Assembly: GCF_000011345.1 (NCBI RefSeq)
Contig: NC_004113.1
Span: forward strand, 1,364,001-1,428,000
Direction of reading: 5' to 3'
Origin: Thermosynechococcus vestitus BP-1
Lineage (GTDB): Bacteria > Cyanobacteriota > Cyanobacteriia > Thermosynechococcales > Thermosynechococcaceae
Length of the DNA: 64,000 nucleotides
Shown: positions 7,760-14,026 of the stretch, piece after piece
Numbering within the stretch: the first letter of the stretch is position 1
How the letters are laid out: the number at the start of each line of letters is the position of its first letter
The notes under the pieces: generated by a model
The model's database searches: none
The model's input: only the letters and a program-made list of their open reading frames with translations
What the model was told of the DNA's origin: nothing
Position numbers and translations under genes: made by a program

Positions 7760-7933
7760 TGAGATCGTGGAAGTTAAGGGCAATACAGCTGCGCGGTGCT
7801 GTTGCGATCGCGCCAGTGGATGCAAGAATCAAAATGCCTATATTTTATACATCATTGATTACCGCTTCGCCCAAGGCACAACTCACTCCATTTTTTGGCA
7901 CACTAGGGAGCACAATTATTTGAGCAAGGGTGG

Positions 7934-8600
7934 ATGCCTGAAACTGTGGCCACCCATTTTCAAGGGCAACTACAACGTTTGCGCAGTGACTTGCGGCGAT
8001 TAGGGGCACGGGTGGAAAGTCTCTATCAACTGGCCTATGGTGGCCTGATGGAGCGAAATCTCCTCGTGTTGAGCAGTTGATCCAAAGGGAACAAGACATT
8101 AACCGCGGTGCTCAAGAACTCAATCGCCCGGCGATCGCCCTGCTGACGTTGTAAATCCCCGTGGCGGAGGATCTGCGATTCTTGATCATGCTTTCCCACT
8201 TCTGTTGCGATCTAGAGCTCATCGGCGATGATGCCCTTGAAATTGGCTGTGCTGCTCAAACGCTGCTACGGTACCCCCGCACCATACCTTGAGGACATCC
8301 GCTTGATGTTCGAGAGAGTACCACTGTTGCTATCGGCAGCCCGCTCCGCCATTGCCGATTTTGATTGCCAATTTTGATCCTGAGGCGGGACTAACCTTAG
8401 CCAACGGTGATGATGCCGTCGATGCTGACTACCCACGTCTTTATGGGCGACTTTGCGCCCCTTTGAATCCCCAAGAGCCGGTGAAACTGCGCTTGATCCT
8501 ACTGCCGCTGATTCGCAATTTGGAGCCCATGGCTGATCATGGGACAACGATTAGCCAGCGCGTCTGCTTCATTGTGGGGGGGGGAAGACCCTTAGGAAAA
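7934..8600 (+). pseudogene. phoU: phoU remnant with three frameshifts and a nonsense codon
   Basis: A PhoU-like phosphate-signalling regulator can be read across three frames. ATG 7934 gives HFQGQLQRLRSDLRRLGA, ending at LLVLSS-stop. The next frame (from about 8068) gives VEQLIQREQDINRGAQEL, then TAA at 8152, then PVAEDLRFL and CCDLELIGDDA. From about 8285 another frame reads YLEDIRLMFERV. From about 8352 the last frame reads DDAVDADYPRLYG, IRNLEPMADHGT and ISQRVCFIVGG. Order and spacing match the two three-helix PhoU repeats. Four lesions make a functional product very unlikely. No phosphate transport gene is adjacent. Confidence 0.85.
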
Positions 8601-8727: not shown

Positions 8728-10605
8728 ATGAGGTTAAGCCGTCGTTCTTTTTTGTATGGTGCTGCGGCACTGACACTGATGCCGTGGGTTTGGCAAACGG
8801 CAGGCGGCTCCTTAGCAGACTCTCCTCGTCCGTGGCGAGTACTCCTGATTGGCATTAACCACTATCCCCAGTTGGCGGGTGTGCCCCCCTTAGCGGGTTG
8901 TCTGACGGATGTTCAGCTAGTGAAAAACCTGTTGTTAGACGGATGGGGGCTGGCGGACAGTGACATTACACTACTGACAGAACAGGCGGCAACCCTGGAT
9001 GCTGTCCAAGAAACCCTAGGGGTGCTGGAGCACTCTGGTCAGCCCCTTTTGGTTTACTTTAGTGGCTATGGCACCGTCTGGCAGCAACAACCAGCGCTGG
9101 TTTTCGCCGATGCCACAAGATCCGGTGAGGGCATCTTACCTCTTGCTGAATTACTGCGTACCAAAGGGGCACAGGTATGGCTTGACACCCGCTTTAGCCC
9201 GCCCCCCATTGAAGGGGAGATGTTGCGTTGGCGATTTGTCCCGTTGCCCTCTGGAGAGACCCGTGGTGCAGGCCAAGTTCCCAAAGATCATCTCCTCTGG
9301 GCTGATTTGGGGGTAGAAACCCACCTGAATGGTGTCCCTATGGGACTCTTTACGGCTAGTTTTAGCCATTATTTAGCGGCTTTGGGGGGCGATCGCCCCT
9401 TGGCAACGAGCCTGATGTACACCGCCGATGAGCTGCGCTGGCAAACGGGGGCAGAAATGCGTCTGGTGAGTGACGGGTTAGCGGCGCACTTCACCCTCTC
9501 CCCTGGATTTGATGGTGTAGTGCAAGGAACAGGGCGCGATCGCTCCCTGCAAATCTGGTGTGGCGGCCTCAGTCCTTGGCTGTTGGCCTACTGTCATCCC
9601 CACAGTCGCTGGAGCACGGCCGATGGGGGCACCGTGGTTGACATAGCGAGTTTTAATGGCCTGATGGCCCAAGGAGTCAGCAGTCAGCCTCTGCAAGTGG
9701 GCGATCGCCTCTACGAACAACAGCGGCGTTTAGGGAAAAATCTCCATCTGCAGGTGGCCCTCGACACCAACCTCAGCAAAATTGAGCGCGTGGATGCCAT
9801 CAATGCCCTGGCCAATGAAGAAAAAGTTGCCGTCCTCAACAGCAGTGACTCCCTGCCGGATGTGGTTCTCACCAAGAGCGAGACAGCGGGCAGTTATGGG
9901 CTGGAGTGGCCAGTAGGGACGTTGTTGGAACATAGTTGCAGTGGTAGCAATGAAGCCGCCAAAGCCGGTATCCGTCGCTTGAACCCCCTACTGAATGCCC
10001 TCCTGGCGCAAAAATGGCTGACACTAACGCTCAATCCCACCTCCAGTCAGGTGGCTGTGTGTACAACTCTTGAACAACTATCGCCAACAGCAAAACTCTT
10101 GAGCCGCCAATCTCCCCCCCGCAGTCCCAAGCCCCTTGCAGATGTCCTGAGCACCAAGCTGCCCGCCATGAATTTACACAGCCCCCTCACCTTGGCCAAG
10201 GGAGATACTTGCCGCTGGAGCCTCTACAACTATGGCGATCGCCCCCTCAACATTGTCGCCTTTGCCTGGGATAGCAGTCAGGGGATTCTCCTGCTTCCGC
10301 TACAAGCGCAGTCGTGGCAGCTGACGGTTGCCCCCGGCTTGAATATTCCCCTCTATACTTGGACGCTGAATCGCCCTTGCCAATGGCTGAAGGTCTTTAT
10401 CATCAGCAGCCCCCGTCCTCTGAACCGTTTTAGTCAACTGAGTGGCCATCCCAGCCATTCAGAGCCCCTCCGAATTTCTGGTGAGGAGAGTCTTGCCTTG
10501 GTTCTTGGTCTGTTAGGGGATCTCAGCGGTGAACCGGAAGGGAATGAATTTTGCTTGGATGTGCGGGAGTGGTGTACCCAAGGCTTCACATTGCGGGTAG
10601 TCTAG
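8728..10605 (+). CDS. Caspase-fold (orthocaspase-like) protein lacking the catalytic dyad
   Basis: A 625-residue exported protein. The N-terminus has a twin-arginine signal (SRRSFLYGAAALTL). Residues about 35-170 form a caspase p20-like domain: VLLIGINHYP, GCLTDVQLVKNLL, LLVYFSGYG and VWLDTRFS. In active orthocaspases these last two are SGHG and DCCHS, so the catalytic His is Tyr and the Cys position is Thr or Arg. Proteolysis is therefore unlikely, and a binding or regulatory role is more plausible. The long C-terminal part (about 460-560) resembles domains appended to cyanobacterial orthocaspases. A ribosome site GGGAGG lies just before ATG 8728. It overlaps the convergent permease gene by 4 bases. 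Confidence 0.85.
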   Translation: MRLSRRSFLYGAAALTLMPWVWQTAGGSLADSPRPWRVLLIGINHYPQLAGVPPLAGCLTDVQLVKNLLLDGWGLADSDITLLTEQAATLDAVQETLGVLEHSGQPLLVYFSGYGTVWQQQPALVFADATRSGEGILPLAELLRTKGAQVWLDTRFSPPPIEGEMLRWRFVPLPSGETRGAGQVPKDHLLWADLGVETHLNGVPMGLFTASFSHYLAALGGDRPLATSLMYTADELRWQTGAEMRLVSDGLAAHFTLSPGFDGVVQGTGRDRSLQIWCGGLSPWLLAYCHPHSRWSTADGGTVVDIASFNGLMAQGVSSQPLQVGDRLYEQQRRLGKNLHLQVALDTNLSKIERVDAINALANEEKVAVLNSSDSLPDVVLTKSETAGSYGLEWPVGTLLEHSCSGSNEAAKAGIRRLNPLLNALLAQKWLTLTLNPTSSQVAVCTTLEQLSPTAKLLSRQSPPRSPKPLADVLSTKLPAMNLHSPLTLAKGDTCRWSLYNYGDRPLNIVAFAWDSSQGILLLPLQAQSWQLTVAPGLNIPLYTWTLNRPCQWLKVFIISSPRPLNRFSQLSGHPSHSEPLRISGEESLALVLGLLGDLSGEPEGNEFCLDVREWCTQGFTLRVV

Positions 10606-12451: not shown

Positions 12452-14026
12452 ATGAGTTACTGCCTAAATCCGAACTGTCCCAAGCCAGATAATCCAGACG
12501 GTTTAGATATTTGCCAAGCCTGTGGCAGCAAACTTTTGCTGAATGATCAATACAGGGCAATCAAAGTGCTAGGGCGAGGAGGGTTTGGTACCACCTTTTT
12601 AGCTGTTGATACAAAACTCCCCGGCAATCCCACTTGTGTGATTAAACAGTTGCGACCCGCCGCCACCGCTCCCCATATCTTGACCATGGCACGGGAACTC
12701 TTTTTGCGGGAAGCCACAACCTTGGGTAAAGTTGGCAATCACCCACAATTGCCTCGGCTGCTCGGCTACCTTGAAAATGAAAATGAATTTTACCTGATCC
12801 AAGAATACGTGGGTGGCCTTACCCTGCAACAGGAGGTCAAGCGCTTTGGCCCCAAAAGCGAAGAAGAGGTAAAGCAGGTTTTGCAGGAAGTGCTGCCTAT
12901 CCTTGATTACCTACACAAAAATGGTGTCATTCACCGCGACATTAAGCCCGCCAACTTGATCCGTCGTGATATTGACAAGAAGCTGGTGCTCATTGACTTT
13001 GGTGCAGTCAAAGACAAAGTTACCCAAGCAATGGTGGAAAACGCACCGGAACTCTCTACATTCACGAGCTTTGCAGTGGGAACGCCAATGTATGCGCCAC
13101 CAGAACAAATGGCCATGCGTCCCATCTATGCCAGCGATATTTACGCCCTTGGTGTCACCTGTGTTTATCTCCTCACGGGCAAATCCCCTAAGGAGATTGA
13201 ACGAGATCCACGCACGGGCGAATGGCATTGGCAGCGGCACGTCAAAAATATTTCCCCTCAGTTTGCTGCTCTCCTCAACAAAATGCTCCAGGATGCGGTT
13301 AAGGATCGCTACCAAACCGCCATGGATGTCCTTGCGGATCTGCAACTACTTGAGTCCAATCAAGGAGCTGCTGTGGCTGTCCCTACGACTTCGACAGAGG
13401 ATGATGACCTCAGCAGTGCCCTTTCAACTCCGCCGAGCCAAGGCCGCCCCCGGGTTCCCGGAGCACCTAAGCGCTCCAGTTATGCCTCATCGGTGAGCCA
13501 AAATGCCCAAGCGGCGCGAGTGCGTCAATCACGGATGACAGGGACCCAATTGGGAGGCCCACCAGTTGTCGGAACTGGCCCCGGTCAACACCTCCGCCCT
13601 AAAGTCACACCACGGATGACAGCGGCACAACTTCTCACAGCCTATAAACGGGGAGAGCGAGATTTTATCGATGTCGATCTCTCCAACGTTGTCCTGCGCA
13701 ATGCGGATCTGTCGGGGGCTAACTTTGCCAATGCTAATTTTACCAATGCAGATTTGAAAGGCTGCATTCTCGCCAATGCTGTATTGCGGGAAGCCAATTT
13801 TCAGGGAGCAAACCTGCATGATGCCAATCTCTGCGGTGCCTATCTGGTGCAAGCCAACTTTGAGAGGGCAAATTTGAAGGGGGCAAAACTACACGATGCC
13901 TCGATCTCAGGCGCAAACTTTACTAGTGCCGACATTTCTGGGGCAGACTTTAGTATGGTCTCGGGGTTTGTTCAAGGTCAACTCGATCGCGCCAAGAAGA
14001 ACTGGTTTACAAAGTTGCCTAAATAG
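12452..14026 (+). CDS. Ser/Thr protein kinase with Cys motif and pentapeptide repeats (SpkB-like)
   Basis: A 524-residue cytoplasmic kinase. It opens with a four-cysteine motif (CLNPNCPKP and CQACGSK), then a complete Hanks-type kinase domain (about 34-300): GRGGFGTTF loop, VIKQLRP lysine, VIHRDIKPANL catalytic loop, IDFGAVKD, and GTPMYAPPEQ. A low-complexity linker (about 300-395) leads to pentapeptide repeats (about 405-505, units such as ADLSGANFA and ANLHDANLC). This architecture matches Synechocystis SpkB, whose Cys motif has been linked to redox control; that link is family knowledge. The gene is monocistronic and converges on nrdJ. Confidence 0.92.
   Translation: MSYCLNPNCPKPDNPDGLDICQACGSKLLLNDQYRAIKVLGRGGFGTTFLAVDTKLPGNPTCVIKQLRPAATAPHILTMARELFLREATTLGKVGNHPQLPRLLGYLENENEFYLIQEYVGGLTLQQEVKRFGPKSEEEVKQVLQEVLPILDYLHKNGVIHRDIKPANLIRRDIDKKLVLIDFGAVKDKVTQAMVENAPELSTFTSFAVGTPMYAPPEQMAMRPIYASDIYALGVTCVYLLTGKSPKEIERDPRTGEWHWQRHVKNISPQFAALLNKMLQDAVKDRYQTAMDVLADLQLLESNQGAAVAVPTTSTEDDDLSSALSTPPSQGRPRVPGAPKRSSYASSVSQNAQAARVRQSRMTGTQLGGPPVVGTGPGQHLRPKVTPRMTAAQLLTAYKRGERDFIDVDLSNVVLRNADLSGANFANANFTNADLKGCILANAVLREANFQGANLHDANLCGAYLVQANFERANLKGAKLHDASISGANFTSADISGADFSMVSGFVQGQLDRAKKNWFTKLPK

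Follow-up and report, generated by a model that had tools for sequence, protein, structure and literature searches.

A Tat-type pseudo-orthocaspase in Thermosynechococcus vestitus BP-1 and its relatives across cyanobacteria

What does an exported protein with a caspase fold do when both of its catalytic residues have been replaced? This question is raised by a gene in a 64,000-nucleotide stretch of the Thermosynechococcus vestitus BP-1 genome (NC_004113.1, positions 1,364,001 to 1,428,000; hereafter the window). The initial annotation had described its product as an exported caspase-fold protein with an intact frame, with SGYG in place of SGHG and DTRFS at the Cys site, and had regarded it as a maintained pseudo-enzyme. 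The features of the gene, in window coordinates, are as follows.

8728..10605, + strand: pseudo-orthocaspase gene, 625 aa, ATG start, no internal stops
8728..8820, + strand: twin-arginine-type signal, read from the sequence (SRRSFL, a hydrophobic stretch, and SLAD at residues 28-31)
8827..9495, + strand: caspase-like domain, residues 34-256 (predicted model m939651cbeba7, which matches metacaspase 4 at Z 14.5 and GSU0716 at Z 14.1)
8899..8910, + strand: C58 and D61, probable substrate-pocket residues (C in 148/158 relatives, D in 158/158)
9061..9072, + strand: SGYG, residues 112-115, with Tyr 114 at the catalytic His place (from aligned paralogues)
9184..9198, + strand: DTRFS, residues 153-157, with Arg 155 at the catalytic Cys place (from aligned paralogues)
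9502..9735, + strand: predicted beta-barrel of the C-terminal module, residues 259-336 (model m11305736d3e3; VIA Z up to 9.4)
9778..9807, + strand: motif at residues 351-360, which reads KIERVDAINA here and mostly RIERVDATSA in relatives, with D356 in 158/158
10117..10602, + strand: C-terminal beta-rich part, from the predicted model

The exported caspase-fold protein was borne out by the 625-aa open frame, a Pfam Peptidase_C14 match of 25.6 bits (cut-off 21.4, residues 38-120 only), the modelled fold and a Tat motif recognised by eye. The N-terminus, MRLSRRSFL, reads as a twin-arginine signal, and the Tat models scored under their cut-offs (12.3 of 22.7 bits in Pfam and 13.2 of 16.7 in NCBIfam). 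AlphaFold2, given 19 rows, predicted the whole protein with a mean pLDDT of 75.8 and a pTM of 0.79. In this model, residues 34-260 matched Arabidopsis metacaspase 4 (VIA Z 14.5, rmsd 3.7, 213 aligned residues), followed by Geobacter GSU0716 (Z 14.1), yeast Yca1 (13.9), caspases and MALT1. The window protein is therefore like plant, yeast and trypanosome metacaspases in the fold of this region and, putatively, in the pocket Cys and Asp; unlike them, it lacks the dyad and carries an additional C-terminal module and an export signal. The MALT1 paracaspase, an active animal protease, was among the top Foldseek rows, and the likeness is one of caspase fold only.

The replacement of both catalytic positions likewise stands. 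Y114 falls at the catalytic His and R155 at the catalytic Cys, a register set by the dyad-intact paralogues (see below), whose SGHG and LD(S/C)C occupy the corresponding alignment columns. The window protein thus has the C14 domain and caspase fold of an active orthocaspase without its His-Cys dyad. It also has the p20-like domain with a substituted dyad and the Tat-like N-terminus of a pseudo-orthocaspase, with Tyr-Arg at the dyad places and not the literal Tyr-Ser of the YS variant. Proteins of this kind have already been described: cyanobacterial pseudo-orthocaspases with a Tat-like N-terminus and a proposed role in photosynthesis were reported in 2019 (PMC6426788), forms with dyads other than YS are counted by the authors as pseudo-orthocaspases, and YR is listed among the rare pseudo dyads (PMC8283722). 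The Tat export that the initial annotation had singled out is accordingly not news: the N-terminus was reported in 2019, and a homologue was labelled in the lumen in 2020.

We then considered how the gene is kept within the genus. A protein search found it in 11/11 genus genomes, as one frame in 10 and as two pieces in one (G002:C1:666944-668817, locus L009), where a true break and an assembly error are both possible. The nearest named loci are those of Thermosynechococcus, at 88-91% identity, and PF00656 exceeded its cut-off in 8/11 genus genomes, always within the pseudo-orthocaspase gene. Among 10 genus sequences, over 29 to 37 pairs whose dS fell between 0.05 and 1.5, the median dN/dS of the whole protein was 0.113. 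By region it was 0.169 (caspase-like part), 0.079 (residues 257-463, barrel and motif) and 0.087 (residues 464-625). The gene is under purifying selection; these medians indicate that it is kept and that, in the genus, its C-terminal half is held more tightly than the protease-like part. In 69 further genera, open frames of the gene span 604 to 896 aa. That a lost protease has left this gene behind as a decaying remnant is hardly credible: the split copy and the faster-evolving caspase-like part would fit decay, and against it stand the whole frame in 10/11 genus genomes, the dN/dS near 0.11 and the frame lengths across genera. Together with the absence of a His-Cys pair from all 158 relatives, the whole frames and the dN/dS value uphold a maintained pseudo-enzyme.

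The tighter C-terminal constraint can be claimed only within the genus, because family-wide the caspase-like blocks match the motif block. Over 91 aligned rows, block scores were 3.27 (residues 51-75), 3.15 (201-225), 3.09 (101-125) and 3.04 (351-375). We accordingly dropped the C-terminal module as a candidate for the best-conserved part of the family. Conservation is lower at the two dyad places (3.21 and 3.33 bits) than at S112, G113 and D153 nearby (4.32).

To describe the family, we compared 158 distinct relatives, leaving aside identical copies and five broken, cut or misframed sequences (L009, L027, L028, L044 and L070). The dyad places read YS in 99, YG in 22, YR in 10, FS and CS in 8 each, HG and LS in 3 each, CG in 2, and LG, LA and YC in one each. 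Tyr-Arg occurs in 10/10 distinct genus sequences and, among the 158, is confined to the genus. The twin arginine is present in 88/88 rows filled at that place (91 aligned) and lies 32-55 residues from the p20 domain in the 153/158 sequences where the distance is measurable. The Tat motif sits at the start codon in 154/154 sequences compared with 1/192 control ORFs, a partly circular count because start codons were chosen for that motif. The same N-terminus and lost dyad recur across the genus and the phylum, a pattern beyond chance. At an E-value of 0.001, 55/58 related genomes gave a match, a count that may include other caspase relatives. A profile of the C-terminal module matched 128/386 genomes of the phylum; among the blanks, the 20 listed all belong to one family (f2) of small genomes, probably Prochlorococcus and its kin, and there were 238 further blanks.

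A lost dyad alone is no proof of lost activity. We looked for an alternative His-Cys pair, which the initial annotation had named as a refutation. D61 is present in 158/158 relatives, and C58, present in 148, is the sole Cys conserved family-wide; judged by its spacing from D61, it is probably the known substrate-pocket Cys. In TbMC2, such a Cys and Asp act in the substrate pocket (PMC6426788). The family-wide conserved His residues are H96 and H110, which in the window protein are Thr and Tyr, and none of the His residues of its own caspase-like domain (45, 102, 188, 199, 214 and 254) is conserved in the family. We also considered H110 as a His swapped with Y114, and dropped the idea since the dyad-intact paralogues have a His in the position of H110 as well as a complete SGHG. 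Catalysis through another residue set, which the retained fold and pocket residues and the invariance of C58, H45 and H214 within the genus (10/10) would favour, is quite improbable given this lack of a family-conserved His in the window protein. The pseudo-enzyme assignment thus holds at the family level, where no alternative pair is conserved, and is qualified within the genus by those three invariant residues. Compared with the published YS and YG forms, the window protein shares the Tat-like N-terminus, the caspase fold, Tyr for His, the lost Cys and a family wide in cyanobacteria. It differs in carrying Arg where the Cys place of those forms has Ser or Gly, in having also lost H96 and H110, and in a gene unlinked to sat.

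Paralogues that keep the dyad occur in other genomes. Two or more matches to the module profile were found in 36/128 genomes, among the matches listed, and from these we examined 20 second matches from 19 genomes (L186-L205). All 20 read SGHG and LD(S/C)C(H/Y/F)SG with a KRR-type N-terminus, and in the one scanned, C14 and DUF4384 both exceeded their cut-offs. They share with the window protein the order of twin-arginine N-terminus, caspase domain and barrel module; they differ in keeping the dyad (20/20) and in lacking both the ERVD motif and an upstream sat, and none was found in the window genome. The motif pattern [RK][IVM][ET][RK][VI]D is present in 158/158 pseudo sequences, most of which read RIERVDATS, compared with 0/20 paralogues as counted, or 0/19 full-length ones, the frame of L200 having only 281 aa and ending before the module. 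Motif counts on 79 loci found by peptide patterns are biased, because one of those patterns contains ERVD; 69 one-per-genus loci came from a profile search (one place, G039, from a protein search), and the same profile also found the motif-less paralogues. On a quick, unrooted tree with long branches, one branch (SH-aLRT 100) split 75 pseudo rows from 19 intact rows. As a side observation, one ORF cluster recurs at 11/20 of these paralogue loci, in most cases upstream and in the same orientation; its product looks like a TPR-repeat protein.

Three forms retain the His and have Gly at the Cys place: L024 (the same gene as L159), L096 and L122. These may be steps toward the dead site. L096 and L159 sit beside the dyad-intact paralogues on the tree, a placement compatible with loss of the Cys before the His, and L122 lies elsewhere on a very long branch.

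We next turned to the C-terminal module. Modelled alone from 38 rows, residues 257-463 gave a pLDDT of 89.3 and a pTM of 0.75. Residues 259-336 resemble the N-terminal barrel found in ATPases of the F1 and type III secretion kinds (Z up to 9.4, rmsd 2.4, 66-70 residues aligned), a likeness of predicted fold only. For residues 257-463, no Pfam model exceeded its cut-off and the PDB gave no sequence relative (best E 0.5); a resemblance of this part to TolB-N or CsgG domains is conceivable. Residues 336-463, motif included, had no named relative in fold searches, which barely covered that part. DUF4384 was recognised in 7/19 relatives scanned and not in the window protein; its position on the C-terminal beta-rich stretch was seen for one paralogue only. 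No stand-alone C-terminal module occurred among the matches listed, all of which lie in open frames of at least 486 aa.

Gene neighbourhoods offered a second line of evidence. In 48/69 one-per-genus loci, sat, encoding ATP sulfurylase, the first enzyme of sulfate use, lies directly upstream of the pseudo gene on the same strand, sat being called from tblastn matches of at least 66% identity and two of the 69 loci having less than 1.4 kb of upstream DNA. The gaps span 12 to 2033 bp from the end of the match (45/48 below 360), with a median of 133 from the end of the ORF. In 49/55 named loci (>14 kb), an ORF of one cluster lies just upstream on the same strand, and three members tested were ATP sulfurylases by Pfam (321 to 328 bits). 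Where the surrounding DNA extended to as much as 8 kb either way (55 loci), the next commonest neighbours reached 20, 15, 12 and 10 of 55; in the 69 loci, a gene behind sat that reads by eye as mnmA occurred in 8 and a downstream one that reads by eye as mtnP in 7, the downstream DNA being short. As other neighbours are far rarer, the sat pair is conserved well beyond its surroundings. Upstream of the dyad-intact paralogues, sat was found in 0/20, one of which (L195) has only 216 bases upstream. Fisher's test gave 6e-9 for the linkage (48/67 pseudo versus 0/19 intact), a value that takes no account of kinship. Mapped on the tree, presence of sat takes a minimum of 14 changes, 7 of them forced by starred branches; it is clustered, with 0/500 shuffles as low.

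These results bear on a sulfur-based explanation, in which the pseudo copy beside ATP sulfurylase would link sulfur supply or lumen thiol redox to the stress response. The 48/69 versus 0/20 contrast speaks for it, and a sulfur link had been proposed in 2016 from a single Nodularia genome in which this pair was seen, as M32 next to sulfate adenylyltransferase (PMC4933709). In the parts of the literature covered on caspases, metacaspases or orthocaspases with ATP sulfurylase or sulfate assimilation, we found no wider survey of the pair. The window, however, has no sat upstream, nor do the six examined loci from its family (L110, L111 and L179-L182); the single sat of the genome lies at G000:C1:1080328, about 292 kb from the pseudo-orthocaspase gene. 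Moreover, ATP sulfurylase is cytosolic, whereas the pseudo-orthocaspase is exported, and the linkage, which follows kinship in its clustering, may reflect no more than a promoter that is shared or convenient. We regard the sulfur explanation as tentative and on the unlikely side. A scan for promoters and terminators around the window gene found no promoter-like site.

The reading that we favour, with reasonable though limited confidence, is a Tat-exported pseudo-orthocaspase that acts most likely in the thylakoid lumen by binding and not by cutting. The caspase-fold domain would retain its pocket residues with neither catalytic His nor Cys, and the C-terminal module, with its beta-barrel, RIERVDATS helix and beta-rich end, is the candidate working end, being the more tightly constrained part in this genus. 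This module may tether or sense a partner while photosystems are maintained or under oxidative stress. For Thermosynechococcus, lumen location, binding role and the existence of a partner are inferred; lumen labelling and H2O2 tolerance come from homologues that are putative orthologues of the window gene. In Synechococcus 7002, A0101, a homologue of sll0148, was reported in the thylakoid-lumen proteome in 2020, with an enrichment of 7.64 with PsbU-APEX2, presence in neither cytosolic sample and the 11th table row, close to psb32 and ycf48 (PMC7880944). In Synechocystis, a knock-out of SyOC (sll0148) tolerated H2O2 better, recovering in 2 mM H2O2 after 3 h instead of 6 h (PMC7889975, 2021). 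Against the binding and lumen reading, the same knock-out was reported to have no growth defect under normal conditions, and family-wide conservation is equal in both halves. Thylakoids do not require the protein, as the family is reportedly absent from Prochlorococcus and Cyanobium (PMC6426788) and the 20 listed f2 genomes were blank.

Export to the periplasm, with action at the cell envelope, is an unlikely alternative destination: the cyanobacterial Tat pathway serves both compartments (PMC6426788), but the 7002 and 6803 homologues were reported from lumen labelling and thylakoid fractions (PMC7880944). A fuller and equally doubtful scenario is that an exported active orthocaspase duplicated and that one copy lost its Cys and His, carries an invariant RIERVDATS-type motif in its C-terminal module, came to lie beside sat and became a lumenal, non-cutting sensor or tether through which photosystem upkeep responds to sulfur or thiol status; the window copy would serve the same role without sat. 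Beyond published work, our analysis adds the dyad survey of 158 relatives, the clade-specific motif, the dyad-intact paralogues with the same layout and the sat linkage across genera. Motif and linkage provide two handles on the role of pseudo-orthocaspases, which are widespread in cyanobacteria.

The window gene also adds to the record of BP-1. Earlier work had counted this strain among those with metacaspases; a 2010 survey dropped one BP-1 protein recognised by CDD and not by SMART and came to the conclusion that a metacaspase orthologue is absent from T. elongatus BP-1 (PMC2853523), which a 2020 review cites (PMC7475262). The dropped protein is likely the product of the window gene, because the family profile matches nothing else, at an E-value of 1 or better, in the genome, a single contig of 2,593,857 bases. 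The window protein can therefore not be relying on an active relative of the same kind. We used the profile since a family search of the genome missed the window gene itself, and the blank from that search is not evidence.

Two other genes merit mention. At 12452-14026 (+), the window encodes a Ser/Thr protein kinase whose C-terminal part consists of pentapeptide repeats; Pfam Pkinase and Pentapeptide both exceed their cut-offs. Directly upstream of the pseudo-orthocaspase gene, at 7907-8582 (+), lies a broken phoU, a phosphate regulator gene, with three matches in three frames; both PhoU matches of this genome in the family search fall there. In L002, L005-L007, L180 and L181, the two matched pieces of phoU share one frame.
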